From Saccharospirillum mangrovi (lineage in GTDB: Bacteria > Pseudomonadota > Gammaproteobacteria > Pseudomonadales > Natronospirillaceae), in the NCBI RefSeq assembly GCF_003367315.1, contig NZ_CP031415.1, positions 3,036,001 to 3,100,000 of the forward strand: 64,000 nucleotides of DNA, in the 5' to 3' direction. Positions within the stretch are counted from its first letter, which is position 1. Each line of letters starts with the position of its first letter. Shown piece after piece: positions 49,359 to 64,000 of the stretch. The position numbers were made by a program, and so were the translations under genes. The notes under the pieces are model-generated. The model saw only the letters and a program-made list of their open reading frames with translations. It searched no databases and was not told where the DNA came from.

Positions 49359-49541
49359 CTAAAGCTCATCGCCCTCGCTTTGCTGGCGTTCGCCAGTACG
49401 CGAACGCAGCGTCGTTTGCGGCCGGGTGGTGTCGTCTTCGTGGACGCGTTCCAGCAAGTCCATTCTGGCCTGGCGGTATTCTTCCTTGCTCAAGGTACCG
49501 TTGGCGTATTGGCGCGATAAGGTTTTCAAATTGGTTGGCAT
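49359..49541 (-). CDS. Small SHOCT-like protein downstream of the kinase gene
   Basis: A 60-residue protein. The first half, LKTLSRQYANGTLSKEEYRQ and then ARMDLLERV, follows the short amphipathic pattern (NGxLSxEEY...R..LL) seen in SHOCT-type oligomerisation motifs; the second half is polar and probably disordered. AGGA is about nine bases before the ATG at 49541; an ATG two codons earlier has a ribosome site that is too close. It begins 29 bp after the kinase stop and is likely the last gene of the signalling operon. The function is unknown. Confidence 0.65.
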   Translation of the reverse strand: MPTNLKTLSRQYANGTLSKEEYRQARMDLLERVHEDDTTRPQTTLRSRTGERQQSEGDEL

Positions 49542-49570
49542 CTTCATTCTTCCTGGCGCTGAAGGCTCGG

Positions 49571-52500
49571 TCACTGGCTAACGGTCTGTAACGGCGGCGG
49601 CAGCACCTCTTCCAGCAACAGTCGGAAACCGGTGAGGTTGTCGGCGCTGCCGGTGTATGGACGGGTCAAGTCGAGTCCGCATTCTGCGTGCGGATCCTGG
49701 AAAGAACCGCCCACCGCCAAACGGGTATCGCCCTGGAAGACAATTTCCTGAGCGTTGCCGATGACGTTTTGCAAACCCCAGCCATTTTGGTGGCCGGTCG
49801 AGACGCGGTTGATCTGGTCGCCTTTCAACACCTGGCCGCCGAGTCGCACCCGACAATTGTAGTCGCGCGGCGGCGGTTGGCCGGCGGCATCGGCAGCGTA
49901 ATGCCATTCTTCCAGCGTCGGCAGGCGATAAGTCTGGCCGGTGCGTTCGGCAACCCAATCCACGTATTCGCTGATCTGGGCGAAGCTCAGGCCGGTGCGT
50001 GGCAGGTCTTTGTCCAGTGAATCGTCAACCGGGCACTGGCCGCTAAGGAAACAGTATTTGTTGTAATCCTCGTTGGAGATTTCGTACTTGCTCATGGCGA
50101 AGCTGCGGCCGCCGGAGCGTGGAATCACCACCATCAATGGGCCGCGCACCTGATCGTGCAGCATGTCGAAACAGATGGCGCGGGCACGCCGGCCGTAGCC
50201 GCCCAAATCTTCGGTGCACGGCCGCGAGCTGGTGACTGGCACCCAGGATTGCGCGGTAATGTCGGCGCCGGTCAATTCCGATTGCGTCCGCAAGGTGCGG
50301 ATATCGACGTCGCGTTGCAGAATCCGGCCCTGCCAACGCTGTTGCGCCATCTGCTGGCTGAGCGTGGAAATGGCGCTGCGGTATTCCTGGTTGTCGGTCC
50401 ACATCTGACGGGCGGCCGACAGTTGCTCACGCGCCTGTTCGTATTGCTGGGCGTCGAGGCTGGCCTCGAACTGGGCGTATTGGGCTTCGGCGTCGGCAAT
50501 GCGGGCGGTCAGGTCTTTTTCGAAATCGAGCACTTCCGGATGCTCCGGCAGCTGCTCTTTGGACGACGCCAGAATGTTGCTCGCTTCGGTCAACCGGCCG
50601 GTCGATAACGCCACCCTTGCGGTGCGGCCTTCGGTCCAGGGCGGCGGTGCCAGTTCAGCGCGTAACTGGGTCAACTGAGCGCTGCCCGGGAACAGAATGC
50701 TGGCGCGCGTCGCCAGACTTTCTGCCTGTTTGCGGTCGTCGTCAGACATAGCCATCACCCGCTCGACCAGCATCAGGGTGTATTGTCGTTCCAGGTCCGG
50801 GTAACGCGCCGGCGCGAAGGTGCGGATTTCATCGATCATCACCTGCGCTGCCGGGGTATCGAAATGATCCGAATCGCCGAACAGGCCGTTCAAGTCGACA
50901 ATGTTGGCTTCCACCAGAAATTGCTCGCGCGTGTTCTGCAACAGCAGATCGTTCGGCGCGATGGTCAACCCCCGGTCGGCCATGCGCGTGGCGGCGCGGT
51001 ACTCGCCCTGCGCACCCAGCCCTTCGGTCAATTCCAGATACGCCTCGGCCATGGCATCGGCAGCGGTGATGGTCAGGAACGGATCGTCGTTGTCGAGGTA
51101 GCGCCGCAGTTCGGCGAGCGTCTGTTCGGCTTCGTCCACAGCGCGCGCTTCAGCTTCGACCAGCAAATCGCTTTGCATGCCTTCGATGCGCGCCTGTTGG
51201 GCGGCGGCTTCACGCGCGACCAGGAATTGGTTGTAGGCGGTCTCAATGCGCTCGCGCGCCGACGCCAGTTTCGGCTCGTTCAGATTGAAACGGTCAATGC
51301 GATCAAGCACCGCTTCGGCCAGACTGAACCGCTGCGCCTGTTCCAGTTCATCGATGCGCTGCAAGTAAAGTGCGGCCAATTGCTCACGCGCCTGTACCAG
51401 CGGCGGATAACTGCGGCTGCGTTCGGCCTGCAAGCGTTGCAACAGGCCGTAGACATCGGCTTCCCAGCGGGCGTCCATTTCCGGCGACTGCAACCGTTGT
51501 TGCAGCCGTTGGGCCATCTGGTCGAGCGCGTCATCTTCGTTCAGGTCGCGGTGCGATACGCTCAGCGCCAGCAGCAAATCCTGATTCACCGGTTCACGCA
51601 CGCTGGTTTCGTTCAGTGCCGACGCGGCGGCCGGGGCGGCCAGATTGGCGAGCAGACGCAACGCCCGGTCGCCCGGTGCCAGTTGCGACAGTTCGACAAT
51701 GGCGTCGTGCTGCTCGACAAAATCCCGCCAGCTCACCGGCTGTGCTCGGGCGTCGCCGAACTGTTGCTGCAATTGAGCAATACGTTGCTGACGTTGCTGA
51801 TCCTGGCGCGCCAGCATCAAACGGTCTTGGGTATTGATCAGGTCGATGTCGTCCGGCATGTGCGCCAGGCCGACACCGAGGAATTGCTCGGCCTTGTCCA
51901 GCTCGCTCAGGTTGATCGCTTCCTGCGCTACCGTGGCGTACAGATCCGGCACGCGCGGGTCGCTGAGCAAGGCGTGTTGCGGCGATACCCGAGCGACGCG
52001 TTCGAGCACGGCGCCAATGCTGTTGCCCTCGCCGCCGTCGCCGGGCAGTAACCATTCATTGGCAAGCGCCTGGTTCAGTTGCTGACTGAGTTGCAGCAGA
52101 TAGCGGTTGCGTTGCAGTTCGAGGTGGCCGCGCAGGGTGTCGAGCGCCACTGAGTCGGGGTAGAGCCGTTCCATGCGCGTCAGTTCGCGCACGGCCGCGT
52201 CGAAGTCGTAGTGCTGTTCGTCGAGGTTGACCACCGCGTCTACCCGCTCGCGGAAGTACGACTGGAAGATGTCGCGGCCGCTGTCGGTGATGCGGTTCTG
52301 GGCGTTGACGTCCATGCTCGGCAGCACGTCGATGGTGTCTTCAAGCACCTGTGGTTCGCCGGTCAGTACGTCGTCGATCATCGCTTCGATACGGCGGTTA
52401 TCGAGATAATTCGACACCGGGTTATACGCCGCCACGGCAAAAATAACCGCAAAGGCCGGCCCGACCACCCAGGGGTTTTTGTAGTAATTGGCCTTGCCTT

Positions 52501-53986
52501 CCAGCTCTTCGAGGAAGTCTTCGACCGTTTCGGTGCGCTTGTCTTTTTCAAACGCCAGACCGTGCATCAAGCCGCGCCATTGCCGCGTTTTCAAACCCTT
52601 GATCGGCGCTGGCACCAGGCTGGCTTCCATCGCTTTGGTGGCCGATTTTTTGTTGAACGGGTGATAGCCGGTCAGCAGTTCGTAGGCGACGCAGGCCAGG
52701 GCGTACAAGTCGTCCTGAGTCGATGGGTCTTTGCCTTGCAGCATTTCCAGCGAGGCGTAGGCCGGTGTTAATGCGCCGAGTGAACCGGCGTCGAAATCGT
52801 CACTTTGGGTGTCGGTGTTGTCGCTGCTGTCGTTTGTGTCGTCGTCCACGACCCGCACGTTGATCGCTCGGGCGATACCAAAATCGAGCGTTTTCACCGC
52901 ACCGTCGTCACACAGGAAGGCGTTTCCGGGTTTGAAATCCGAGTGCACGATGTTGCGTTGGTGCGCGTAAGACAGCGCCGCGCCCAACTGTTTAATGATC
53001 GGAAAGGCTTCGTCGAACGGCAGCCCGCCGCGCGGCCGCACCACTTTGCGGATATACGAATCCAGCGGTTTACCGACCAGCAATTCCATGGTGATGAACA
53101 CCTGGGTGCCGGTCATGCCGATGCGGTCGAAATCGAACACCGTGACGATGTTGGGGTGCGCCAGTTTTTGTTGGCGGCTGGCTTCGCGCTGCAACGCGAC
53201 GAAGGCTTTAGGGTGTGCTTTAAAGTCTTCAGTCAAGACTTTCATGGCGACGAACGGGTTGCTGTCGCTGGCTTCCACCTTCAACAAATCGCGCGCCTGG
53301 AACACCTTGCCCATGCCGCCGGCGCCGAGCACTTTGTCGAGAATAAAGCGGTCTTTGATGATCGAGCCCGGACCGAGGTTTTGCAGTTGCGGGTTGGTAG
53401 CACCGGGCAAATCCCAGGAGCGTTGCGAGGTGTTGTCGGTGGTCGAGGTCTGCGCGCCGGTGGTGTGCATGGTGCCGCCGGTCGAGGTCTGGCCGGTGGT
53501 GCTGGTGTTGATGACGGTGCGGTCTTCGTCTTCATCGTCGTCGGGGTTGGCGATGACGGTCATTTCTTCGTCATCGTCATTACCCGGCGGACGGTGATCG
53601 GCGATGACGGTCATCTGGTCGTCGTCGATCTCAGTCTGGTTCGGTGGCGCTTCCGGGAACGCAATGACCGTCATCTGTTCGCTTTCTTCTTCGCTCAGCG
53701 GGTCGGCACGGTCGTGATGCGCGATAACGGTAACGGCGTCGTCATCGTCCAGGGTGTCGGCGCCATCGGGCGCGTCCGGGTTCCAGCCGGGAATGTCTTT
53801 GATGCGTTCGGCGAAATCCTCGCCCATCCAGCCTTCGGCGACCGCCTGATCCAGCGCCGTCAGCCATTGCTCGGCGCTGAACGCGCCCTGCTTGAGCAGG
53901 CTGGGCAGGATGGACTGCAATTCCGGCAACGCCAGTTCGGCGTTGGCCAGATCCTGCAATAAGCGCTGTGGGGTAACCGTTGCCAT
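49571..53986 (-). CDS. Membrane Ser/Thr kinase with C-terminal formylglycine-generating-enzyme-like domain
   Basis: A 1471-residue Hanks-type kinase. Residues 80-160 form an acidic tail with five T-V-I motifs (Thr 86, 106, 126, 143, 157). The kinase domain spans about 210-495: glycine loop GAGGMGKV (221-228), Lys249, catalytic loop HSDFKPGN (348-355, HSD instead of HRD), DFG (368-370). One membrane helix lies at about 507-522. About 750 residues of helical, TPR-like and coiled-coil sequence follow, then a C-type-lectin/SUMF1-like domain from about 1280 (MSKYEISNEDYNKYC, RLPTLEEWHYAADAAG, GLQNVIGNAQEIV, TGFRLLLEEV). The topology implies a cytoplasmic kinase and a periplasmic sensor or scaffold. 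Kinases of this make-up (PpkA) act with PP2C and FHA proteins, both encoded just upstream. Confidence 0.93.
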   Translation of the reverse strand: MATVTPQRLLQDLANAELALPELQSILPSLLKQGAFSAEQWLTALDQAVAEGWMGEDFAERIKDIPGWNPDAPDGADTLDDDDAVTVIAHHDRADPLSEEESEQMTVIAFPEAPPNQTEIDDDQMTVIADHRPPGNDDDEEMTVIANPDDDEDEDRTVINTSTTGQTSTGGTMHTTGAQTSTTDNTSQRSWDLPGATNPQLQNLGPGSIIKDRFILDKVLGAGGMGKVFQARDLLKVEASDSNPFVAMKVLTEDFKAHPKAFVALQREASRQQKLAHPNIVTVFDFDRIGMTGTQVFITMELLVGKPLDSYIRKVVRPRGGLPFDEAFPIIKQLGAALSYAHQRNIVHSDFKPGNAFLCDDGAVKTLDFGIARAINVRVVDDDTNDSSDNTDTQSDDFDAGSLGALTPAYASLEMLQGKDPSTQDDLYALACVAYELLTGYHPFNKKSATKAMEASLVPAPIKGLKTRQWRGLMHGLAFEKDKRTETVEDFLEELEGKANYYKNPWVVGPAFAVIFAVAAYNPVSNYLDNRRIEAMIDDVLTGEPQVLEDTIDVLPSMDVNAQNRITDSGRDIFQSYFRERVDAVVNLDEQHYDFDAAVRELTRMERLYPDSVALDTLRGHLELQRNRYLLQLSQQLNQALANEWLLPGDGGEGNSIGAVLERVARVSPQHALLSDPRVPDLYATVAQEAINLSELDKAEQFLGVGLAHMPDDIDLINTQDRLMLARQDQQRQQRIAQLQQQFGDARAQPVSWRDFVEQHDAIVELSQLAPGDRALRLLANLAAPAAASALNETSVREPVNQDLLLALSVSHRDLNEDDALDQMAQRLQQRLQSPEMDARWEADVYGLLQRLQAERSRSYPPLVQAREQLAALYLQRIDELEQAQRFSLAEAVLDRIDRFNLNEPKLASARERIETAYNQFLVAREAAAQQARIEGMQSDLLVEAEARAVDEAEQTLAELRRYLDNDDPFLTITAADAMAEAYLELTEGLGAQGEYRAATRMADRGLTIAPNDLLLQNTREQFLVEANIVDLNGLFGDSDHFDTPAAQVMIDEIRTFAPARYPDLERQYTLMLVERVMAMSDDDRKQAESLATRASILFPGSAQLTQLRAELAPPPWTEGRTARVALSTGRLTEASNILASSKEQLPEHPEVLDFEKDLTARIADAEAQYAQFEASLDAQQYEQAREQLSAARQMWTDNQEYRSAISTLSQQMAQQRWQGRILQRDVDIRTLRTQSELTGADITAQSWVPVTSSRPCTEDLGGYGRRARAICFDMLHDQVRGPLMVVIPRSGGRSFAMSKYEISNEDYNKYCFLSGQCPVDDSLDKDLPRTGLSFAQISEYVDWVAERTGQTYRLPTLEEWHYAADAAGQPPPRDYNCRVRLGGQVLKGDQINRVSTGHQNGWGLQNVIGNAQEIVFQGDTRLAVGGSFQDPHAECGLDLTRPYTGSADNLTGFRLLLEEVLPPPLQTVSQ

Positions 53987-53999
53987 GCTGCGACTCGCT

Positions 54000-54749
54000 C
54001 TAGTTGATCTCGACGACAACGACGGTGACGTTGTCTTTGGCACCCCGTTCCAGGGTCAGGTCGATCAGGTGTCGGCACACCGACTTGGGTTCGCCCTCGG
54101 CCAGCAGGCGGGCGATCTCGGTATCTTCCAAGTGGCGCGTCAGACCGTCGCTGCACAGCAAGTAACGGTCGCCACTGTTGAGCTCACACAAATCGGCTTC
54201 AAGATACAGCTCGTCCTGGCTGCCCACCGCCCGTGTGATGATGTTGCGCTCCGGGTGCGAACGCGCCTGTTCGCGCGTGATGATGCCCTGGCGAACATAG
54301 GATTCGACCTGCGAATGATCGGTCGATAACTGCGCCAGTTCGCCACCGCGCAGCCGGTAAATACGGCTGTCACCGGCCCACAGAATGGCGCCCAGATGAT
54401 CGCTTTCCGCAATCAGAATAGCGATGGTGCTGCCGATGATGTGCTTCCGACCGTCGTCGTGATAGCTGCGGCTGAGCAGATGCTGGTTCACCTGTTCGAC
54501 GGCGTCTTCCAAGCGATCCAGCCGTTGCGCCAGCGGGCCATCCAGCGGCGTGGTGCGCAGCGTTTCAACGATCATGCGGCTGGCGACATCGCCGGCGTCG
54601 TGACCGCCCATGCCATCGGCCACGACCCAGAGCCCCTGTTTGGGCAAGTCGAGAAAAGCGTCTTCATTCACGCGGCGCACCAGGCCCCGGTCGGTCAATC
54701 CACTGGATTGGGCGATGTGCGCTTGAGCGTCGGGCTTTGCTTCAAACAT
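54000..54749 (-). CDS. PP2C-type Ser/Thr phosphatase
   Basis: A 249-residue metal-dependent protein phosphatase of the PppA/StpA type. All core motifs are present: RRVNEDAF, VVADGMGGHDAGDVAS, GDSRIYRLRGGEL, LLCSDGLTRHL and KDNVTVVVVEI, giving the Asp residues for two Mn2+ or Mg2+ ions. There is no membrane segment, so it is cytoplasmic. It ends 13 bp before the kinase gene and almost certainly reverses that kinase's phosphorylations. Confidence 0.95.
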   Translation of the reverse strand: MFEAKPDAQAHIAQSSGLTDRGLVRRVNEDAFLDLPKQGLWVVADGMGGHDAGDVASRMIVETLRTTPLDGPLAQRLDRLEDAVEQVNQHLLSRSYHDDGRKHIIGSTIAILIAESDHLGAILWAGDSRIYRLRGGELAQLSTDHSQVESYVRQGIITREQARSHPERNIITRAVGSQDELYLEADLCELNSGDRYLLCSDGLTRHLEDTEIARLLAEGEPKSVCRHLIDLTLERGAKDNVTVVVVEIN

Positions 54750-54773
54750 CCTGTTGTTCCCCTCAAAGCGGCG

Positions 54774-55676
54774 TCAGCCTTCCAGTGTGAACCGGATCAG
54801 TTCCTGTGGATCGTTATCGAGCGCGCGGCCCAGACTGATAACGCCGTTGCCGGTCAACACCAGTTCGTCGCGACGCACATAAACCGGAGCGCTGCCTTCG
54901 GCCTGAACGTAGGTGCCGTTGGTGCTTTGGTCGATCAGCACAAAGCGGTCGCGGCGCAGCTCAATGCGCACGTGCTGACGCGACGCCAGCGCTTCGGCGA
55001 CCGGAATGTCACAGGTGTTGCTGCGTCCCAACACCGCCGATTCGCGCTGGTGGCTGAGCTGAATCTGGGTGCCGTTGTATTCCAGTTGCAACTGAGCGCT
55101 GTGGCCCTGGTTGCCCGACACAGACGCAACGTCCACCTGCATGCGGGTAACGTCTTCTTCCTGCCAGATGATTTCGGCAATTTCCATTTCGCCCTTGCCT
55201 TTGATGGCGGCGTAATCGACCACCCGGGCGCTGTCGCGCAGCAGCGGCGGCAACAGTTTGACTGTTTCAGCGGTGGTGATGATTTGTCGCGACTTGGCTT
55301 GCGACGCCATGCGCGCCGCCACGTTAACGGCATCGCCATGCACGTCGCCGTCTTCCAGTACGCACGGGCCAAACTGATAGCCGACGCGGATGGTCACCGG
55401 CACTTCGTTTACGTTGTCGTTGATGGCGTCTTCGATGGTTTCCTGCATGTCGCAGGCGGCCTTGGTGGCAATTTCGGCGTCATCGAAGGTGCACATGATT
55501 TCGTCACCGATCATTTTGACGACGGTGCCCTGATAGCGAGTGACCACCTCAGAGAGCATGTCCAAAGTGACCGCGACGATCTTGCGTGCGCGTTCGTCAC
55601 CCAGGCTGTCATATAGCCGCGTGCTGCCCACGATGTCGGCAAACAGAATGGCTAATTTTTTGGTTTGGGTAGACAT
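54774..55676 (-). CDS. Class III adenylate/guanylate cyclase with C-terminal FHA domain
   Basis: A 300-residue cytoplasmic protein. Residues 7-165 form a class III cyclase domain with every catalytic position intact: metal-binding Asp14 (LFADIVGSTRL) and Asp58 (KMIGDEIM), purine-specifying Lys54 and Asp111, and transition-state Asn118 and Arg122 (GDAVNVAAR). The Lys/Asp pair favours ATP, so cAMP is the likely product. Residues about 205-290 form an FHA phosphothreonine-binding domain (AVLGRSNTCDIPV, ASRQHVRIEL, STNGTYV). It would be activated or localised by binding a phosphothreonine, most simply on the operon's own kinase. Confidence 0.94.
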   Translation of the reverse strand: MSTQTKKLAILFADIVGSTRLYDSLGDERARKIVAVTLDMLSEVVTRYQGTVVKMIGDEIMCTFDDAEIATKAACDMQETIEDAINDNVNEVPVTIRVGYQFGPCVLEDGDVHGDAVNVAARMASQAKSRQIITTAETVKLLPPLLRDSARVVDYAAIKGKGEMEIAEIIWQEEDVTRMQVDVASVSGNQGHSAQLQLEYNGTQIQLSHQRESAVLGRSNTCDIPVAEALASRQHVRIELRRDRFVLIDQSTNGTYVQAEGSAPVYVRRDELVLTGNGVISLGRALDNDPQELIRFTLEG

Positions 55677-55699
55677 GAATAGCTTCCTTCGTTCGAGTC

Positions 55700-56245
55700 C
55701 TACTCAATGGGTAGGGGCTGGTTAAGGTCTTCAAATCGGCTCAATGGCACATCCGCATTCGGAAACGGCACCTGCGGCCCGACGACGATTTCGTCAATTT
55801 CAAACTGGTCCGACCAGGCACCATCCAGGGCATCCCGGTCGATATCCGCGATCACTTGGACCACGCTTTGTTGCATCTGTTCCTGCTCATCGAGCAGGGC
55901 CAAAAACCGCTGCCGCAACTCGCCGTCTTCGGGCATATCGCGCTCGGCCAGTAACGCGTCCAGGTCGTCGCGCATGTGCTGCATTTCCTGTTCGTTCAAC
56001 GCGGTCACGCAATACGCCTCTTCGGCACAGGCGGCCAGTGCCAGTGCCAGCCCGGCCTGAACGTCTTCGAGCAACTGCAGCTCGGTTGCCAGATCGGTGG
56101 CCGGCGCTTCTGCTTCTGCCGCTTCGTCCACCACCGTTTCGGCGTCTAAAGCGTCGGTCGCCGGTGCGTCTTCCGCCGCCACGCTTTGGACGACTAACCA
56201 AAGCGGCAACACGACAGACAACAGGCGATGGGCAATTCGGTTCAT
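55700..56245 (-). CDS. Secreted acidic protein with Cx5C helical motif
   Basis: A 181-residue protein of no recognised family. Residues 1-24 are a signal peptide ending in VAAED. The mature protein is Ala/Glu/Asp-rich, with a helical core from about residue 50. Its segment GLALALAACAEEAYCVTALN has a Cys-x5-Cys spacing that recurs in the C-terminal stalk of the giant protein encoded directly upstream (ALAFAQCEEIEGCT), and both continue with similar acidic helices. The shared pattern suggests that the two interact or are related by duplication. It lies 13 bp after the giant gene and 23 bp before the cyclase gene. Confidence 0.7.
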   Translation of the reverse strand: MNRIAHRLLSVVLPLWLVVQSVAAEDAPATDALDAETVVDEAAEAEAPATDLATELQLLEDVQAGLALALAACAEEAYCVTALNEQEMQHMRDDLDALLAERDMPEDGELRQRFLALLDEQEQMQQSVVQVIADIDRDALDGAWSDQFEIDEIVVGPQVPFPNADVPLSRFEDLNQPLPIE

Positions 56246-56258
56246 AGCCATCCGACCA

Positions 56259-59200
56259 TCAGTCCAACAAGGTCTCGAGTTGGGCTTCAGCGCGGGCGGC
56301 TACCGCCAGCGTGCTTTCAATAATCTCGTTCAAACGCTCTTCGCTCAAATCCAGACCGGTGGCGTCGGCAAAATGCTCACGCCGCTCGGTGTTGAATTGC
56401 AGGTTCTCCAGGAAACGCACCCGAGTGTAGATGGTTTCGATCACCGCCAACTGACGTTCAACCGCTTCCATGTCGATTTCCTGGTCGGTGCCGAGTTCTT
56501 CATCCATCAATTCCTCGAAGCCGGTGAACGACTGCAAATCGCTGCGGTAGGTGCTGAACTCCGCCTGCTGCGACCGGAAGCCAGCCAGCAAGGTCTGAAT
56601 CTGCTCGCGGCGTTCGACATCGCTGGTGGTGGTCAGTTCGCTTTCCAGCTGATCGATGCGTTGCTGCAATTCGTCGATGGAGGCGGTCAATTCGTCCGCC
56701 GTTACATCGGGCGTACAGCCTTCAATTTCTTCACACTGGGCAAACGCCAGCGCCACACCTTCGCCCATGCGGCCGAACAGCGTCAGGTCTTCTTCGAACA
56801 ACGCCAGGTCAACCACTTCGATCGCCCGGACACCCAAAACCGCCGCTGCCGGGTTGCTGAAGTTCACCGCGACGCTGACCACTTCCAAACCCAGCCGATT
56901 GATGAAGGCGTTAGTGTTGGCGCTCAACGCCACACCGGTGGCGTTCGACAAACCACTGGGTTGCGAGGTTTCCTGCTGCTCCTGGCTGACGGCCAATTCA
57001 AAGGCGCCGCCGTTGAAGTCCAGAATCAGGTTGTCTGATTGGGTGACACCACCGGCGGCAATGATCTGGCCGCCTTCGGCTTCCACCAGCGTTTCCTGCT
57101 GAACGATGACGTTGCCCGAACCGCTCAAACCGCTGCACACATCGCAGAAGGAACCGGTTGCCACGAAGCTGACGTCACCGCCACTGCTAATGGATGCACC
57201 GGTAAGGATTATTTCTGACGCCAGCAACACCAGGTTGCCGCCGGTCTCGATAACGTTATTCAACGTCAGTTGGTTGGCGTTGATGGCGATGCTGCTGAAA
57301 TTGGCGTTCAGCGGCAAGGTGCCCGGCGTGATGACGCCGCCAATGAACAGATTGCCGACGAAACTGGTCAAGCTGGGCAGGAACAGATCGCTGTTGCTGA
57401 CTGACATATTGCCCGAAGTGCCGTTGTCGCGACGCGGGATAAACAGTGTGCCCGAGCCGGTAACCTGGCCTTGGGTCAACTTCTTGCCCGCGGTGTAATG
57501 CCAGCGGTTGTCGCCGCCACGAATTTCCACCGTGCCGGTGTACTGACCGTTGGAGACAAAGGTATTGGTGCCGCCCAGCCCGCTGATCACGTGACTGAAA
57601 CCATCGAAACTGACGTTGCTGGCGCCGACACCCAGGGTGCCGCTGTCGTTGCCGCTGAGTGTCCAGTTGCTGGCGGTGGAACCACTGCCCTGCAAAATAT
57701 CGCCGTTGCCAAGCAGCGTCTGGATGTTGCTGAAACCCTGACCAAACACCAAGGTCACCGGGCTGCTGGTGCCGGAGACGTCATAAGTGTTGCTGCCCGC
57801 GCCACCGTTGATCTGCCCGGTTACCCGGCCGGTGCCGGTGCGGTTGAAGCGATCGTTGCCGCTGCCGCCGATCAGATTGCCGTTGTAGACACCGCTGATG
57901 TTAAAGGTGTCGCCGGTGTCGCCACCGAGCAGTTCCGAAAAGCCGGTGAAGCCAGCGCCAACGGCCAAACTCGCGTTGTTCAAGGTACCGCTGGTGCTAC
58001 CGGTAACGGCCCAGGTGTTGGCAACGTTGTCGTAACCTTGCAGACGATCAACACCGCTGCCTTGCAGAGTAATGCTGCTGCCATCAAGCGTCAGACCGTT
58101 CAGATCCAGCGTCACGCCTGCGGCGCTGCCCGCCTGATTGACCGCCAGGGTCAGCGCGCCGCCGGCGTCCAGGGAAGTGCCCGGATTAAAATTCAGCGTG
58201 TTCTGCGCCGACAGCGACAAGGTGCCGTTGGTGGTGATGTTGGTAAACGTGATGTCGCCGCCATTGACGGTCAGCGACGCCAACGGCGTGGTCGCGCCGA
58301 CCGCGCCGTTAAAATCAACATCGCCGGTGCCGGTGTTGATGCTCAGGCTTTCATTGCCATCGATGGTGCTGCTGAAATCGATGTCGGCGTTATCAGTGAC
58401 CAGACTGGTGGTGCCGGCCAATTCAACCGCGCCGGTGTACGACTGGGCACCGTCGGTATTGATGGTCGCCGCGCCCAGGGTAATTGTTCCGGTGCCGCCG
58501 TCAGCGGTGATCGCCAAATCACCGCCCAGCGTGATGTTGTCAGCAATGATGACACCGCCGCTGCCAGAGCTGAGCGTCAGGCTGTGGGTGCTGTCGAATT
58601 CGCCATCAAAGGTGATGGCACCCGCACCGGTGTTAGCCAGAGTCAGATCGTAACTGGCTGAGAAACCGTACAGCGTAATGTCGCCGGTGTGATTGGTTTG
58701 GCCGACCTGGAATTGCGCTTCGGCGTTGAAGGTGAAGCCGGAGCCGATGTCGTATTCGGCACCGTCACCCACCGTGCCAGCACAGGAAGCGCCACTGCAC
58801 AATTCCAGATGCGAGCTGCTGTCTTGCGGTGCCAGCGTGATCGTGCCGGTACCGACTTCCATATTGAGATCGCCAGAAATGGTCAGATGGTCGGTGATCA
58901 GATCAATGTCGCCGTTGTTCAGCGTGGTCAGTTCAATCGGCGTGGCGTTGGTGGACGTAATGGTGTCGGCGTTCAGGCCAATGTTGGCGGCGGTCAGTTC
59001 CAGGCCGTCCACCAAGGTCAGCGTACCCAAGGCATTTTGCAGATCGAAATCGCCATCGATATCGACGGTACCGCCGAGGTTGACGTTTTGCGCTTCGACA
59101 ATGGTCAGGTCATTGAGATTGTTGATGCTACCGCTGAAAACGATATCGCCAACGCCACCCGTGCTGTCTGAGTTGGTGTTCAGCGTCAGGTTGCCGGAGG

Positions 59201-62200
59201 TGGCACTGCTCAGGTCTCCGGTAATGGTGATGTCGCCTTCCTCACTCAACAACGAGAAATTGCCACTCAGCAAGACGTTGGAGTTGTAGTTCTGGTGGTA
59301 CTGGGTATGCACCTGACCGCCTTGCAGCAACGCATTGCCGGCGCCCGGATTCAACACCAGTGCGCCGCCGTTGGTGCCATCCAGATTGCCGGTGACGACG
59401 ATGTTGGCGTTGTTGATCACCTGCAGGATGTAATCGAAGTTGATGCCTTCGAGGGTGATCACCCCGCTGTGGGTGTTGCGGCCAAACTGAATGGTCTGGG
59501 CGGTGATTGAAAGATCGCCCAGATCGTAAGTGGTGTCGAAGCTGCCAACGCAGGTGGTGTCGCGGCAGATGTGTACGGTGTTGCTTGCGGTGGAAGGTGC
59601 CAGTGAAACGGTACCGGTACCGGCATTGATGGTGGTGCTGCCGCCCACTGTCAGCAGATCGTCCACATTCAAGGTGATGTTGCCGTTGGTAGCACTGGTG
59701 TTAAGGCTGATGTTGTTCAGCGTCAGGCCGTTCACCGTCAGGCTGATGTTGTCGGCCGCGATGGCGCCACCCAGAGTGGTTGTGCCGTTACCCAGGGTTT
59801 GAGTGAAATTATTCGCCAGCGAGATGGTGCTGTTAAAAGTGCTGTTGTTGGCGTTATCGATGTCCAGGTTCGCCAGTTGCGTTGTGGCACCAATGGCGCC
59901 GGTCACCAGAATATTGCCGTTGCTGCCGGTATCGAACGTTAGTGACTGTGCACCCACACCCAGGCCATCCACGCTGCCATTGATGCTGATATCACTGTTG
60001 GTGGTGGTGAGTTCCAGGGTGTTGTTCAGCACGACCGCGCCGTTGTAAGTCTGGCTGCCCGAGGTGGTGACATTGGCGTTCAGCGTGATGCTGTCGCCGG
60101 TCGCGGTCAGGCTGGTCAGCGAAACCGTGTCACCAAACTCGACATCGCCACTGCCAGCATTCAGCGTCAGAGTGTGGCTGCCGCTCAGGGTTTCGCTGAA
60201 GGTGATGTCGCTGTTGCTTGTGCTCAGGCTGACGTTGGCACCCAAGGTTGCGACACCGTTGTAGCTCTGGCTGCCGCTGGTGGTGATGTTGTGACTCAGG
60301 TCGATGTCGTCGGCGTTGATGGTCAGGCTGGCTAAGGCGCTGCCCGCACCGACAGCGCCGCCGAAATTGATGCTGCCATTGTTGGCGGTCAGTGTCAGCG
60401 CACCGGGGCCGTCGAGCGTGTCTTCAAAAATGATGTCGCTGTTAGCGCTGGTCAGGGTGGCGCTGCCGTTGATGGCGACGGCATCTTGGTATGTCTGGCT
60501 GCCGCTGGTGGTAACGCTGGCGGCCAAAGTGGATTCACCGGTGACGTCCAGGCTGGCGACGTTGGTCATCGCACCTTGCAGATTCAGATCGCCGGTGATG
60601 GTCAGGCCATTGGTGTTATCGCCAGTCACGATGTCGTTGAACTGAATCAGGCTGCCGTCCAGATCACGCGCGCCGGATAAGGTGACTTCTCCGTTGTAGG
60701 TCTGGCTGCCGGTGGTCGTAATGTTCTTGTCGATCAGAATGTCGTCTTCGGTGATGGTCAGATTCTGCAAACCGACGAGTTGCTGATAACTGAAATTACC
60801 GCTGCCAACATCGATGCCCAGGCTGTGGCTGTTGCCGGCCAGGTTGCTGCTGAAAGTGATGTTGTTATTAATGGTGGTGAGGTCAACGTCGCCAGTCAAC
60901 GACAACGCGCCGGTGTAGGTTTGCACACCGGACGTCGTGACGTTTCCACCCAACTGAATGGTAGCGCCGGTCACCGCCAGGCTGGTCAGCGCCGCGCTGT
61001 TGCCCACGGTATTGGCGAAGGTCACGGTACCGGAGCCAGCGTTGGCGCTGAAGGTCTGGCTGCCGTTGAGCGTTGAACCGAAGTTGATAGCGCTGTTGGT
61101 GGTTTGCAGGGCAACGGCGTCGGTCAGGGTGACGGCGCCGCTGTAGGTTTGTGTGCCTGTGGTGGTGACGTTGCCGCCCAGCTGGGTCGAGCCGGTCGCA
61201 CTGGTGACGTTCACGAATTCGAGGCTGTCGGTATTGCCAACCGCTGAACCGAACACGACCGCGCCGGTTCCGGTCGTCAGCGTCAGCGATTCTTTGTCGC
61301 CAGCCCCGTTGCCATTCACCGTGCTGGTGAAGGTGATGTCATCGTCGCTGGTTTGCAGCGTAACGTCGCTGTCCAAGGTCACGGCACCGGTATAAGACTG
61401 CGCACCGCTGGAAGTGACATTGCCCGCCAGGTTGGACGTGCCGCTCACGCTCAGGGTGGTGATGCCGCTCAGGCTGCTGTCCAAATTCAGCGCTGCGTCA
61501 ATGCTCAGGCTGTCGTCGCCATCGCCGGCCACCGCATTGGTGAAATTCACCTGTGTGCCGGTCAGGGTAATGCCGCCGTCCAATGCCACCGTGCCGGCGT
61601 AGGTTTGAGCGCCTGCGGTGGTGACGTTGCCGCCCAGGTTGGTTGAACCGGTTGCACTGGTGACGTTCAAAAATTCCAGGCTATCGCTATCGCCGACGTC
61701 AGCACTGAAGGTAACCGCGCCGCTTCCGGTGGTCAGCGTCAGCGCTTCTTTATCACCGGCGCTGTTGCCATTCACAGTGCCGTTGAAACTGATGTTGCTG
61801 TTGCTTGTTTGCAGCGTGACATCGTTATCCAGCGTGACGTTACCGCCGTAGGTCTGGGCGTTTACAGTGCTGACGTTGCCACCCAGGGTGATTGACCCAG
61901 TGGCGCTGGCGAGGTTCAGCGACGCCAGGCTGTCAATATTGCCTACGGCGGCATTGAAGGCCACTGCGCCGGTTCCTGTATTCAGCGTCAGCGCTTCTTT
62001 GCCGTCGCCTGCATTGCCGTTGCCGTTCACGGTGCCGTCAAAGGTGATGCTGCCGTTGCTGGTGGTTTGCAGTGTCAGGCTGTCGTTCAGTGTGACGGCG
62101 CCGCCGTAACTTTGGTTACCGCTGGTGGTGACATTGCCTGCCAGACTGACCGCATGGTTAGCGGTCAAGCTGGCCAGATCGGCGACCGCATCGGCAAAGA

Positions 62201-64000
62201 TGGCGGTGCCGTTGGCGGTCGATAACGTCAGCGACTGGGTGCCGTCGTCGCCATCGACGGTTTCGCTGAAGGTAATGTTGCCATTGTTGGATGTGAGCGC
62301 CGCGCTATCGGTCAGCGTCACAACGCCGCTGTAAATCTGGCTGCCTTCGGTGGTGATGGCGCTGCTGCCGATGCTGACCGAGCTGTCGGCGCTGGTGACA
62401 TTCAGACTCGCCAGACTGTCGGTGTTGCCCATCACGCCATTCAGGGTGACGGTGCCGGTTCCGGTACTGAGCGTCAGTGAATCTTTGGCGCCACCGCCGT
62501 TGCCATTCACGGTGCTGGCACTGGTGAAGGTGATGTTGCCGTTGCTGGTGGTTTCCAGCGTGAGGTCCTGATTCAACGTCACTGCGCCGTCGTAACGTTG
62601 ATTGCCACTGGTCGTTACGTTGTCGCCCAGTGCAATGGCATTCGCGCTGACATCCAGACCACCCAGTTCGATGCCGCCCACAACGCCCGCAAAGCTGACA
62701 TCGCCGTCGGCCACCAGCGTTAACGATTCACCGTCGGCGTCGCCGGTAAAGCCGTTGACGGTGCCGCCAAAATCAATGTTGCCGTTGCTCGCGGCTGTTG
62801 TCGTCAACGTCACGTTATTAGTGAGTGTGACGTTGCCCGCGTAGTTCTGATCGCCGTCGGTGGTGACGTTGCCACCCAATGTGACCGCGCTGTTTGAACT
62901 GGTCACGTCCAGGAATTCCAGCGCATCGATGTTGCCAACCGATGAATTAAATATGACCGCGCCGGTTCCAGTGGTCAGTGTCAGCGATTCTTCACCGTCA
63001 CCAGCGTTGTTGTTGCCATTGACCGCACCCGAAAAGGTAACGCTGCCGTTGCTGGTGGTTTCCAGCGTGACGTCGTCATTCAAGGTCACTGCGCCGACAT
63101 AACTCTGGTTGCCACTGGTGGTGACATCGCCCGCCAGACTGACCGCATGGTTGGCAGTGACGCTGGCGAGATTACTGATGGCATCGGCAAAAATTGCGGT
63201 ACCGCTCGCGTTCGACAAGGTCAGCGATTGCGAACCATCGTCACCACTCACCGTGTTGTTGAAGGTGATGTTGCCGTTGCTGGAGCTGAAGGTTGCGTTG
63301 TTCGTCAGTGTGACCGCGCCGCTGTACAACTGACTGTTGGTGGTTGATACGTTGCCACCGATGTTGATCGTGCTGTTGCCGCTGTTAATGCTCAGGCTGG
63401 TCAGGGTGGCGGTGCCGCCGACCGTGTCGTCGAAGCTGACCACGCCGGTGCCGGCGCTCAAGGTCAGTGAGTGCGCGCCATTCAGCGTGTCTTCAAAATG
63501 AATGTCGCTGTTGTTATTGGTCGCCAGCGTGAGGTTGCTGGTCAGATTCACCTCGCCCACGTAATGCTGGTTGCCGCTGGTGGTGACGTTGCCACCCAAG
63601 TCGATGGCGTTGGCGGTTACGTCCAGGCCACCCATTTCGGTACCGCCGACGACATCGGCAAAACTCACGTCGCCATCGGCGACCAGCGTTAACGATTCAC
63701 TGTCGGCGTCACCGGTGAAGCCGTTCACTGTGCCGCCAAAATCGATGTCGCCTGCGCTCGCGCTTGTGGTGGTCAGCGTGAGGTTGTCGTTTAACGTGAC
63801 ATCGCCCGCGTAGAGTTGATCACCACTGGTGGTGACGTTACCGCCCAGCACAATGGCACCGTCGGCACCGGTGATGGTCAGACCGCCCAGTTCACCATCA
63901 ACGCCGCCACCGACGACGCCGCTCAAGGTCACTGTGCCGGTGCCAGCATTCACGGTCAGCGTATGCGCCGCACTGGCTTCGCTGTCGACGCTGTTGTCAA
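56259..64000 (-). CDS. Giant beta-repeat exoprotein (partial, 5' end outside window)
   Basis: At least 2,580 residues in one uninterrupted frame; the N-terminus lies beyond the window. The visible part starts with at least 17 copies of a roughly 80-residue repeat built around L-G-G-N-V-T-T-x-G-x-Q-x-Y-x-G-x-V-T-L, expected to form a long beta-helix or beta-solenoid. More divergent repeats follow (to about 58.4 kb), then a Gly/Asn/Asp-rich region with an RTX-like GGSGNDRFNRTG, and a final acidic helical stalk of about 190 residues ending in AQLETLLD. There is no autotransporter barrel, LPXTG or RTX secretion tail. Two-partner secretion is one possibility, but the TPS domain and export signal would be off-window. 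It is likely a surface adhesin or matrix protein. Confidence 0.85.
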   Translation of the reverse strand, partial: DNSVDSEASAAHTLTVNAGTGTVTLSGVVGGGVDGELGGLTITGADGAIVLGGNVTTSGDQLYAGDVTLNDNLTLTTTSASAGDIDFGGTVNGFTGDADSESLTLVADGDVSFADVVGGTEMGGLDVTANAIDLGGNVTTSGNQHYVGEVNLTSNLTLATNNNSDIHFEDTLNGAHSLTLSAGTGVVSFDDTVGGTATLTSLSINSGNSTINIGGNVSTTNSQLYSGAVTLTNNATFSSSNGNITFNNTVSGDDGSQSLTLSNASGTAIFADAISNLASVTANHAVSLAGDVTTSGNQSYVGAVTLNDDVTLETTSNGSVTFSGAVNGNNNAGDGEESLTLTTGTGAVIFNSSVGNIDALEFLDVTSSNSAVTLGGNVTTDGDQNYAGNVTLTNNVTLTTTAASNGNIDFGGTVNGFTGDADGESLTLVADGDVSFAGVVGGIELGGLDVSANAIALGDNVTTSGNQRYDGAVTLNQDLTLETTSNGNITFTSASTVNGNGGGAKDSLTLSTGTGTVTLNGVMGNTDSLASLNVTSADSSVSIGSSAITTEGSQIYSGVVTLTDSAALTSNNGNITFSETVDGDDGTQSLTLSTANGTAIFADAVADLASLTANHAVSLAGNVTTSGNQSYGGAVTLNDSLTLQTTSNGSITFDGTVNGNGNAGDGKEALTLNTGTGAVAFNAAVGNIDSLASLNLASATGSITLGGNVSTVNAQTYGGNVTLDNDVTLQTSNSNISFNGTVNGNSAGDKEALTLTTGSGAVTFSADVGDSDSLEFLNVTSATGSTNLGGNVTTAGAQTYAGTVALDGGITLTGTQVNFTNAVAGDGDDSLSIDAALNLDSSLSGITTLSVSGTSNLAGNVTSSGAQSYTGAVTLDSDVTLQTSDDDITFTSTVNGNGAGDKESLTLTTGTGAVVFGSAVGNTDSLEFVNVTSATGSTQLGGNVTTTGTQTYSGAVTLTDAVALQTTNSAINFGSTLNGSQTFSANAGSGTVTFANTVGNSAALTSLAVTGATIQLGGNVTTSGVQTYTGALSLTGDVDLTTINNNITFSSNLAGNSHSLGIDVGSGNFSYQQLVGLQNLTITEDDILIDKNITTTGSQTYNGEVTLSGARDLDGSLIQFNDIVTGDNTNGLTITGDLNLQGAMTNVASLDVTGESTLAASVTTSGSQTYQDAVAINGSATLTSANSDIIFEDTLDGPGALTLTANNGSINFGGAVGAGSALASLTINADDIDLSHNITTSGSQSYNGVATLGANVSLSTSNSDITFSETLSGSHTLTLNAGSGDVEFGDTVSLTSLTATGDSITLNANVTTSGSQTYNGAVVLNNTLELTTTNSDISINGSVDGLGVGAQSLTFDTGSNGNILVTGAIGATTQLANLDIDNANNSTFNSTISLANNFTQTLGNGTTTLGGAIAADNISLTVNGLTLNNISLNTSATNGNITLNVDDLLTVGGSTTINAGTGTVSLAPSTASNTVHICRDTTCVGSFDTTYDLGDLSITAQTIQFGRNTHSGVITLEGINFDYILQVINNANIVVTGNLDGTNGGALVLNPGAGNALLQGGQVHTQYHQNYNSNVLLSGNFSLLSEEGDITITGDLSSATSGNLTLNTNSDSTGGVGDIVFSGSINNLNDLTIVEAQNVNLGGTVDIDGDFDLQNALGTLTLVDGLELTAANIGLNADTITSTNATPIELTTLNNGDIDLITDHLTISGDLNMEVGTGTITLAPQDSSSHLELCSGASCAGTVGDGAEYDIGSGFTFNAEAQFQVGQTNHTGDITLYGFSASYDLTLANTGAGAITFDGEFDSTHSLTLSSGSGGVIIADNITLGGDLAITADGGTGTITLGAATINTDGAQSYTGAVELAGTTSLVTDNADIDFSSTIDGNESLSINTGTGDVDFNGAVGATTPLASLTVNGGDITFTNITTNGTLSLSAQNTLNFNPGTSLDAGGALTLAVNQAGSAAGVTLDLNGLTLDGSSITLQGSGVDRLQGYDNVANTWAVTGSTSGTLNNASLAVGAGFTGFSELLGGDTGDTFNISGVYNGNLIGGSGNDRFNRTGTGRVTGQINGGAGSNTYDVSGTSSPVTLVFGQGFSNIQTLLGNGDILQGSGSTASNWTLSGNDSGTLGVGASNVSFDGFSHVISGLGGTNTFVSNGQYTGTVEIRGGDNRWHYTAGKKLTQGQVTGSGTLFIPRRDNGTSGNMSVSNSDLFLPSLTSFVGNLFIGGVITPGTLPLNANFSSIAINANQLTLNNVIETGGNLVLLASEIILTGASISSGGDVSFVATGSFCDVCSGLSGSGNVIVQQETLVEAEGGQIIAAGGVTQSDNLILDFNGGAFELAVSQEQQETSQPSGLSNATGVALSANTNAFINRLGLEVVSVAVNFSNPAAAVLGVRAIEVVDLALFEEDLTLFGRMGEGVALAFAQCEEIEGCTPDVTADELTASIDELQQRIDQLESELTTTSDVERREQIQTLLAGFRSQQAEFSTYRSDLQSFTGFEELMDEELGTDQEIDMEAVERQLAVIETIYTRVRFLENLQFNTERREHFADATGLDLSEERLNEIIESTLAVAARAEAQLETLLD
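60030..63860 (-). repeat. Tandem about 240-bp repeats in the giant exoprotein gene
   Basis: At least 17 units, spacing 225-260 bp (75-86 residues), each containing a variant of GGNVTTSGNQxYxGAVTL followed by a TLxTTSNGNITF-like strand pair and a SLTLxTGTGAVxF-like strand pair. Units are diverged at DNA level but keep frame and length. Confidence 0.9.
61843..63804 (-). repeat. Higher-order duplication of a four-repeat block
   Basis: Two adjacent blocks, 62836-63804 (969 bp) and 61843-62835 (993 bp), match repeat for repeat. Examples are FGGTVNGFTGDAD then ESLTLVADGDVSFA in the first unit of each, and GTAIFADA then TANHAVSLAG in the third. This shows that the gene grew by doubling of a four-unit segment after the single units had already diverged. 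Confidence 0.8.

Follow-up and report, generated by a model that had tools for sequence, protein, structure and literature searches.

Two-partner secretion (TPS) is commonly regarded as a simple exporter of two genes whose regulators are external. According to a TPS review (PMC5422565), the disulfide-bearing C-terminal domain of HMW1 stays in the periplasm and locks the TpsA protein in TpsB, the same is expected for HxuA, and the periplasmic C-terminal tail of CdrA is cut by LapG; the word 'kinase' occurs there twice, both times for a host kinase. In the type VI secretion system (T6SS), the PpkA–Fha–PppA set, together with periplasmic regulators, works on secretion at a stage after translation (PMC10482370). 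Here, a locus of Saccharospirillum mangrovi is described in which a giant TPS exoprotein was encoded in one gene row with a membrane kinase, a phosphatase, and a nucleotide cyclase fused to an FHA domain. The analysed stretch, referred to as the window, was C1:3036001–3100000 (64,000 nucleotides) of a genome composed of one contig of 3.69 Mb. Since the same set was kept together in rearranged gene orders among relatives, secretion and signalling were probably parts of one system, seemingly undescribed. A TPS system with a dedicated threonine-phosphorylation and cyclic-nucleotide module is the explanation towards which we incline, with confidence a little above even.

Six consecutive genes on the minus strand ran from the giant gene to position 49359, with intergenic gaps of 7, 23, 24, 13, and 29 bp when the starts were taken from relatives (ATG at 53986 for the kinase and at 49541 for the SHOCT-like protein). 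The features were as follows (window positions; aa, amino acids; ORF, open reading frame).

56259..64000, minus strand: C-terminal 2579 aa of tpsA, encoding a 4213-aa TPS exoprotein, assigned by TPS-domain matches.
56262..56798, minus strand: C-terminal TpsA domain, conserved, with a helix, the Cx5C loop, and further helices; codons of the Cys pair at 56715–56735, from aligned tails and a low-confidence model.
55700..56251, minus strand: P5, 183 aa, predicted periplasmic with a hydrophobic N-terminus, Cx5C module with Cys at 56009–56029, assigned by homology to the TpsA C-terminal domain.
54774..55676, minus strand: class III nucleotide cyclase with C-terminal FHA fusion, 300 aa, from Pfam and invariant residues.
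54000..54749, minus strand: PP2C phosphatase, 249 aa, from Pfam, a Stp1-type model, and Asp sites.
49571..53986, minus strand: membrane Ser/Thr kinase with an FGE-like domain close to its C-terminal end (start of the longest ORF, 54043).
53516..53731, minus strand: five T-V-I motifs in the kinase N-terminal tail, candidate autophosphorylation and FHA docking sites, from motif counts.
49736..50107, minus strand: FGE-sulfatase-like domain of the kinase, predicted periplasmic, from Pfam and a structure-profile match.
49359..49541, minus strand: SHOCT-like protein, 60 aa, from a SHOCT match below cut-off.

The giant gene, tpsA, spanned C1:3092259–3104900 (4213 aa as the longest ORF) and was cut by the window end, past which it extended 4.9 kb. 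The tpsB gene (C1:3104884–3106698, 604 aa) was located immediately upstream, and the longest ORFs of the two genes overlapped by 17 bp. The N-terminal secretion domain of TpsA matched the TPS family (PF05860, 4.3e-31; TIGR01901, 1.2e-19), also known as the haemagglutination domain, and the adjoining TpsB contained a ShlB barrel (PF03865, 1.8e-20) and a POTRA_2 domain (PF08479, 4.5e-11). With TpsB directly upstream and a TPS domain in the giant protein, the locus is a TPS system, and by family TpsA would be exported via TpsB. The window part of tpsA contained three short arrays of tandem repeats only. A preliminary description of the window had listed six same-strand genes with short gaps, a cyclase–FHA fusion, a PP2C phosphatase, and a kinase with an FGE-like domain; the row was recovered on the minus strand with gaps of 7–29 bp, and the Pfam matches agreed with these assignments. 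The giant exoprotein gene of that description was real, although incomplete in the window, and the region upstream of 64000, where a TpsB or type I exporter was to be looked for, contained a TpsB.

The signalling proteins matched known families. The cyclase–FHA fusion contained guanylate cyclase (1.2e-18) and FHA (1.1e-11) domains, and the phosphatase matched PP2C_2 (2.2e-14) as well as a Stp1-type model (3.7e-63, 213.1 bits, below the cut-off of 230). The kinase (Pkinase, 7.5e-31; FGE, 7.8e-08) was composed of a cytoplasmic tail with T motifs, the kinase domain, one transmembrane-like segment, and a predicted periplasmic part of ~770 residues with the FGE-like domain. The SHOCT match of the 60-aa protein (7.6e-06, 25.9 bits) was below the 27-bit cut-off. 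Active-site residues were intact. Residues K, catalytic D, N, and DFG D, to which we assign the roles presumed for kinases of this fold, were invariant in 37/37 TPS-linked kinases, and HSD replaced HRD in 36 of them. The four Asp sites of PP2C were kept in 38–39 of 39 TPS-linked proteins; R26, one of the seven sites picked, was variable. Residues D, K, D, D, N, and R of the cyclase and R, S, H, N, and G of the FHA domain were identical in 39/39 TPS-linked proteins. We take the former to be a metal-binding Asp pair, a Lys and an Asp for adenine, and an Asn–Arg transition-state pair, and the latter to form the phosphothreonine pocket. Judged from these alignments, the active site of a class III adenylate cyclase and the FHA pocket are both present at the residue level, and the product would be cyclic AMP (cAMP).

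These residues bear on an alternative in which the FHA-cyclase is mainly a phospho-scaffold that acts directly on secretion or anchoring, like Fha of the T6SS, and cAMP matters little. An FHA domain binds phosphothreonine by family, and the kinase, PP2C, and FHA set of the T6SS acts post-translationally on the machine itself (PMC10482370). However, the retention of six cyclase active-site residues in every one of 39 proteins would hardly be expected of a mere scaffold, and we regard this alternative as unlikely.

When the FGE domain was compared with solved structures, the best match was 7spq, 'Serine/threonine kinase ToxD' (8.7e-5), for which a literature search found no paper. The 60-aa SHOCT-like protein was a short form, which elsewhere had a longer C-terminal part and a hydrophobic segment. 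In several loci, the SHOCT-like partner was labelled as having an FGE-like part, confirmed by Pfam in locus L076 (PF03781, 1.5e-44), and thus FGE-type parts occur twice in the system, in the kinase and in this partner. L076 was labelled as a metagenome-assembled genome (MAG) of Klebsiella pneumoniae; its cyclase grouped closely with that of L079, from an uncultured gammaproteobacterium, and the label is doubtful. Elsewhere in the genome, a second FHA gene was located beside a second Ser/Thr kinase gene (G000:C1:1741506–1743951), and no TssC match was found in G000.

For comparison among relatives, an alignment of three FHA-cyclases served as the query and two peptide patterns were scanned over 84,980 species genomes, from which 334 FHA-cyclase relatives were confirmed. 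The loci were the best 80 of these 334, with flanks up to 10 kb. The peptide patterns were seeded from TPS-linked clusters, so that the loci are biased towards linked ones; a sample of the whole order was free of this choice. ORFs were picked by length and labelled by hidden Markov models built iteratively from the window proteins, and distant genes may therefore have escaped.

The set recurred in at least three gene orders. In layout A, found in Saccharospirillum, Natronospirillum, four Marinospirillum, and Hylemonella, the order was tpsA, P5, cyclase, PP2C, kinase, and SHOCT, all on one strand. A TPS domain or tpsB was present upstream on the same contig in the window genome, in G084 of the same genus, and in the genomes of L057, L060, and L061; in L058, L059, and L062, the contig stopped inside tpsA. 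In layout B (22 loci, mostly gammaproteobacterial MAGs by title), a peptidyl-prolyl isomerase (PPIase) gene, tpsB, and tpsA were divergent from cyclase and PP2C, followed by kinase and SHOCT where the contig reached. In layout C (L122, L127, L131, L134, and genome G220), PP2C was divergent from cyclase, kinase, tpsB, and tpsA. Furthermore, the gene immediately preceding the cyclase in L091 and L125 was giant and beta-rich, and a TPS domain was located 12–13 kb away.

The PPIase between tpsB and cyclase in layout B was of the parvulin type (PPIC), by Pfam in the three loci tested (L063:8647–9684, L067:8621–9637, and L072:8715–9791). It was considered as a dedicated TpsA chaperone and rejected, since its profile also matched in three loci around which no TPS gene was found (L080, L089, and L090). 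In deltaproteobacterial relatives, a caspase-domain gene (PF00656) was located among two PP2C genes, an FGE kinase, and an FHA-cyclase (L096:4540–8628 and L120:12512–13813). A second, more distant FHA-cyclase (34% identity) was located ~3 kb from another TPS gene at G310:C59:346074–349894.

A locus was scored as linked when its flank carried a TpsA or TpsB label or when PF05860 matched on the same contig at a distance of up to 30 kb. A TPS locus was beside the FHA-cyclase in 27 of the 50 genomes behind 50 of the 80 loci (the closest FHA-cyclases), against 1.28 expected from random placement, a chance value calculated from the number of PF05860 copies, a target of 60 kb, and genome sizes that were rounded. 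The linked genomes include those of L074 (24.6 kb), L120 (18 kb), and L064, the last by flank labels only in a genome without a PF05860 match, as well as that of L078, counted through a 2869-aa ORF labelled TpsB (L078:1–8607) and PF05860 at 26.7 kb. This ORF was far longer than other TpsB proteins, and a fusion or an assembly effect is possible. The 30 loci outside the genome count were mostly on short or one-sided contigs, together with L056 (the same record as G084), L111, L122, and L127; besides L056, the linked ones among them were L065, L066, L070, L075, L084, L086, L122, L127, and L134. Over all 80 loci, a TPS gene was present in the flank or within 30 kb in 37.

The linkage followed the FGE kinase. 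TPS was nearby in 25 of the 31 genomes with FGE kinase and PP2C, and in 2 of the other 19: PP2C only, 1/3; kinase without FGE plus PP2C, 1/6; kinase only, 0/3; neither, 0/7. The sole linked case of a kinase without FGE plus PP2C was L077, which was cut by a contig end. Among the loci flanked by 5 kb or more in both directions (53/99), TPS was found in 27/30 FGE-kinase loci and 1/23 others. In the order-wide sample of 293 genomes, the FHA-cyclase was present in 34 and a TPS gene in 109; among the matches listed, whose places were compared by eye, 3 of the 34 FHA-cyclase genomes (G000, G084, and G220) had a TPS gene within 30 kb, and these three also carried the kinase and PP2C. Five TPS matches in FHA-cyclase genomes were unplaced (G011, G047, G098, G214, and G274), and the flanks read in G011 and G274 were without TPS. 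These counts indicate that neither TPS nor the FHA-cyclase is linked in general, and that the FGE-kinase combination is. The preliminary description had proposed a candidate new system that joins the exoprotein to the signalling genes, and had named homologous signalling genes found mostly without the giant gene as the contrary case. The joining was borne out as a recurrent, rearrangeable unit distinct from the T6SS, and sets of FGE kinase, PP2C, and cyclase were mostly TPS-linked; the linkage did not extend to FHA-cyclases alone.

On the cyclase tree, a quick tree with long-branch warnings, the TPS label needed 7 changes (shuffled mean ~31), at least 5 of which were forced by starred branches. 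One part of the tree with 33 rows held 31 TPS-linked rows, and the linkage counts are therefore not independent. This grouping would fit a neighbourhood of independent genes, co-carried by descent or transfer without shared function, as would the lack of power of the independent-pair test described below. However, the set was retained though gene order and strand changed, and TPS-linked lineages were apart on the tree, where layout C, L091, L125, and L120 sat elsewhere. We consider such a neighbourhood very improbable.

As in the threonine-phosphorylation pathway of the T6SS, a membrane Ser/Thr kinase, a PP2C, and an FHA protein were encoded together, and such a pathway might merely have landed beside a TPS operon. 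Speaking for it are the same three protein kinds and the resemblance of the FHA domain to TagH, which was weak (1.4e-07; 31.7 bits, with the cut-off at 120.25). However, the sheath gene TssC (PF05943; VipB) was not found in the whole 3.69-Mb genome, other T6SS genes not having been searched, in line with the preliminary description, which had seen no type VI gene in the window. Of the cluster-bearing genomes, 30 were considered, and TssC was found in 5 of them; thus the T6SS is not required. Although the set resembles PpkA–Fha–PppA, membership in the T6SS pathway was rejected, and a stray copy of that pathway is the least probable of the explanations, hardly to be credited.

The N-terminal tail of the kinase contained five T-V-I motifs, each after an acidic stretch. 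In relatives, up to twelve T-[VIL]-[IVLM] motifs were found per kinase tail; the letters around the motif Thr varied by lineage (TVIA, TILR, TQLA, and TEIN), and the form was constant. With a general motif of at least two acidic residues in the five before T and a hydrophobic residue at +2, 158 motifs were counted in 43 kinase tails, against 33 in shuffled tails (p<0.05 in 24/43). Tails shorter than 90 aa, from 11 of 54 kinases, were excluded from this count, and of these only L120 was TPS-linked. Clusters of at least four motifs within 120 residues were found in 19/51 kinases and in 1/1124 other ORFs of the same loci, which were not verified genes. The remaining two Ser/Thr kinases of the genome showed no array, their T-hydrophobic matches (2 and 4) being scattered. 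The tail Thr residues are likely targets of autophosphorylation, to which the FHA domain of the nearby-encoded cyclase would bind, and such arrays predict FHA recruitment graded by the number of phosphorylated repeats.

The C-terminal domain of TpsA shared a Cx5C module with P5. The Cys pair was invariant in 11/11 aligned TpsA tails, ~150 residues from the C-terminus within a predicted helical domain, and in 10/10 aligned P5 proteins. The last 579 aa of TpsA matched no Pfam family above its cut-off, and no family with a useful E-value was found for P5. When the two were compared with each other, hhalign of the two profiles alone gave E 1.4e-6 (probability 90) and single-sequence BLASTP without composition correction gave 3e-5; from these alignments, P5 and the C-terminal domain of TpsA are paralogous. 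This homology and the kinase-tail arrays go beyond the preliminary description. For the TpsA tail and for P5 alike, the structure models were poor, and both gave a helix, the Cx5C loop, a helix, and a helix. In L136 and L139 of layout B, tpsA was followed by P5 and then by a SapC-family gene, and the Cx5C module was shared there too. SapC-family genes (PF07277, down to 3.8e-73) were located at L136:2989–3750, L139:3067–3822, and L140:421–1170, and their location next to a TPS exoprotein makes SapC a possible additional component.

A contact-dependent inhibition (CDI) toxin of the CdiA kind was considered for the tail and rejected, since the tail was conserved, with 64–86% identity in seven relatives with the same gene order, and the next gene, instead of a CDI immunity gene, was P5, a tail paralogue with a hydrophobic N-terminus. 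By analogy with HMW1, we propose a role as periplasmic anchor for the Cx5C domain of TpsA.

In the mechanism that we infer for a TPS system with a dedicated signalling module, from phosphorylation to the cellular response, TpsB would export the giant TpsA, whose Cx5C C-terminal domain would remain in the periplasm and serve as an anchor. Through its periplasmic part and FGE domain, the membrane kinase would monitor the envelope, probably the biogenesis or the anchored state of the exoprotein, and when active would phosphorylate the repeated Thr motifs of its own cytoplasmic tail. The FHA domain would bind the phosphorylated tail, bringing the fused cyclase to the kinase and changing cAMP output, and PP2C would strip the phosphates from the tail. 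P5, as a periplasmic copy of the TpsA C-terminal module, could compete with, cap, or report on the TpsA tail. A more specific form is put forward tentatively, with well under even confidence: the TpsA C-terminal domain and P5 would be the periplasmic ligands of the kinase, so that export, anchoring, or fibre pulling would set kinase activity, the number of phosphorylated motifs would set FHA-cyclase recruitment, and cAMP would report surface contact or secretion success.

Several observations weigh against this explanation. FGE kinase and PP2C occurred without TPS nearby in six genomes (those of L094, L095, L096, L099, L102, and L107), with no PF05860 match at all in the genomes of L094 and L099, and in L085, L088, L089, and L090, which were also without a nearby TPS gene, cyclase and PP2C were kept together with a kinase lacking FGE. 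For the FGE–TPS association, the tree offered 3 independent pairs, of which ~2 agreed and 0 opposed, which was not significant in an underpowered test. The set was patchy: an FHA-cyclase of this kind was present in 2/5 sampled Saccharospirillum genomes, and the TpsA tail was found in 2/293 genomes of the order. The tail motif was defined after the sequences had been looked at, the motif score was zero in five TPS-linked tails (L063, L065, L068, L075, and L081), no motif cluster was present in 32/51 kinases, and deltaproteobacterial kinases were without a tail (3–4 aa). Furthermore, L140 had the TpsA tail and no P5, with the SapC-family gene directly after, and no Cx5C tail could be located where the giant proteins of L091 and L125 end. 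The structure models were weak, with a predicted local distance difference test (pLDDT) of 59.5 and a predicted template modelling score (pTM) of 0.30 for the TpsA tail, and 67.1 and 0.45 for P5. CRP sites with at most one mismatch were present in both Saccharospirillum, absent in 4/4 other A-type upstream regions and present in 1/29 divergent regions, with 0.30 expected; the 29 include three that are not TPS-linked (L080, L095, and L124).

The CRP sites bear mainly on an alternative in which an unrelated cue, from the envelope or from nutrients, acts on the kinase, which controls tpsBA transcription via cAMP and CRP, the exoprotein being output only. In both Saccharospirillum species, which are close relatives, a CRP-like site with one mismatch was located ~90 bp before the matching tpsB start (P ~0.01 each). 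The upstream regions of L147 and L149 contained CRP-like sites with two mismatches (P ~0.1); the L149 region and its cyclase were on different contigs, and their pairing is an assumption. A protein with cNMP-binding (cyclic-nucleotide-binding) and rhodanese domains was encoded beside the cluster, in layout C, at L036:11448–12515, L122:7855–8913, and L131:7302–8309, and is a possible cAMP reader; a Crp gene was near the cluster in L122, and the window genome had four cNMP-binding matches. However, the 1-mismatch site was present in only 2/6 A-type regions, and its absence from the other four and from 28/29 divergent regions led to the rejection of CRP control of tpsB as a general output. Moreover, Crp may be a mere resident neighbour there, as in Pseudomonas, and an exoprotein that is output only leaves P5 and the joint absence of the FGE part and TPS unexplained. 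We rate this alternative as rather improbable, a little below the periplasmic-ligand proposal and clearly above the scaffold.

No sigma-70 promoter-like site was found in either scanned stretch of the locus, and terminator-like sites were near background; both results were uninformative. Upstream of tpsB, the minus strand encoded three proteins of similar appearance, predicted to be secreted and ending in hydrophobic, basic tails (L002:7463–12183); the one that was scanned had no Pfam match.

When compared with the H1-T6SS pathway (PpkA, PppA, Fha1, and TagQRST; PMC10482370), the module was alike in its kinase with a periplasmic part, PP2C antagonist, FHA protein, and periplasmic regulators that would feed the kinase. 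It differed in that the neighbouring secretion was TPS, the FHA domain was fused to a cyclase and the FGE domain to the kinase, the kinase tail had repeated Thr motifs, and TssC was missing from the genome. TagR is FGE-like. On the secretion side, the pairing of a POTRA_2 and ShlB TpsB with a giant TPS-domain protein was that of FhaB/FhaC, HMW1/HMW1B, HxuA, and CdrA/CdrB (type Vb). Unlike in the HMW1 type, the Cys pair was separated from the C-terminus by ~150 residues and belonged to a longer domain, predicted to be helical, with the paralogue P5 next door; in HMW1, the pair presumably lies nearer the C-terminus.

SiaABC(D) of Pseudomonas aeruginosa has another kinase type and cyclic di-GMP in place of the predicted cAMP, and is not known to include an FHA domain or to be encoded beside cdrAB. 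It is alike in that a threonine phospho-switch is tied to a nucleotide cyclase and to CdrAB-dependent aggregates (PMC7647112, in which a reference title names SiaD a diguanylate cyclase). The MST2–SLMAP pair of the Hippo pathway is eukaryotic and recruits a phosphatase complex, not a cyclase, and offers a works-like analogy only. SLMAP binds via its FHA domain, and several phosphothreonine sites are used. As proposed here, an autophosphorylated kinase linker recruits an effector protein (PMC5663475).

Among the matches listed in a literature search aimed at this combination or at FHA-cyclases, with subscription papers and preprints outside its scope, no TPS operon with kinase, PP2C, and FHA-cyclase was described. 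The parts are of known kinds; as far as this search shows, neither their recurrent union nor the kinase-tail arrays nor the anchor-domain paralogue had been described before. If the proposed mechanism is true, the locus would provide a tractable route to how bacteria sense their own surface proteins, and a recurrent version of TPS would have gained a built-in signalling arm, in parallel to the threonine phosphorylation pathway of the T6SS.

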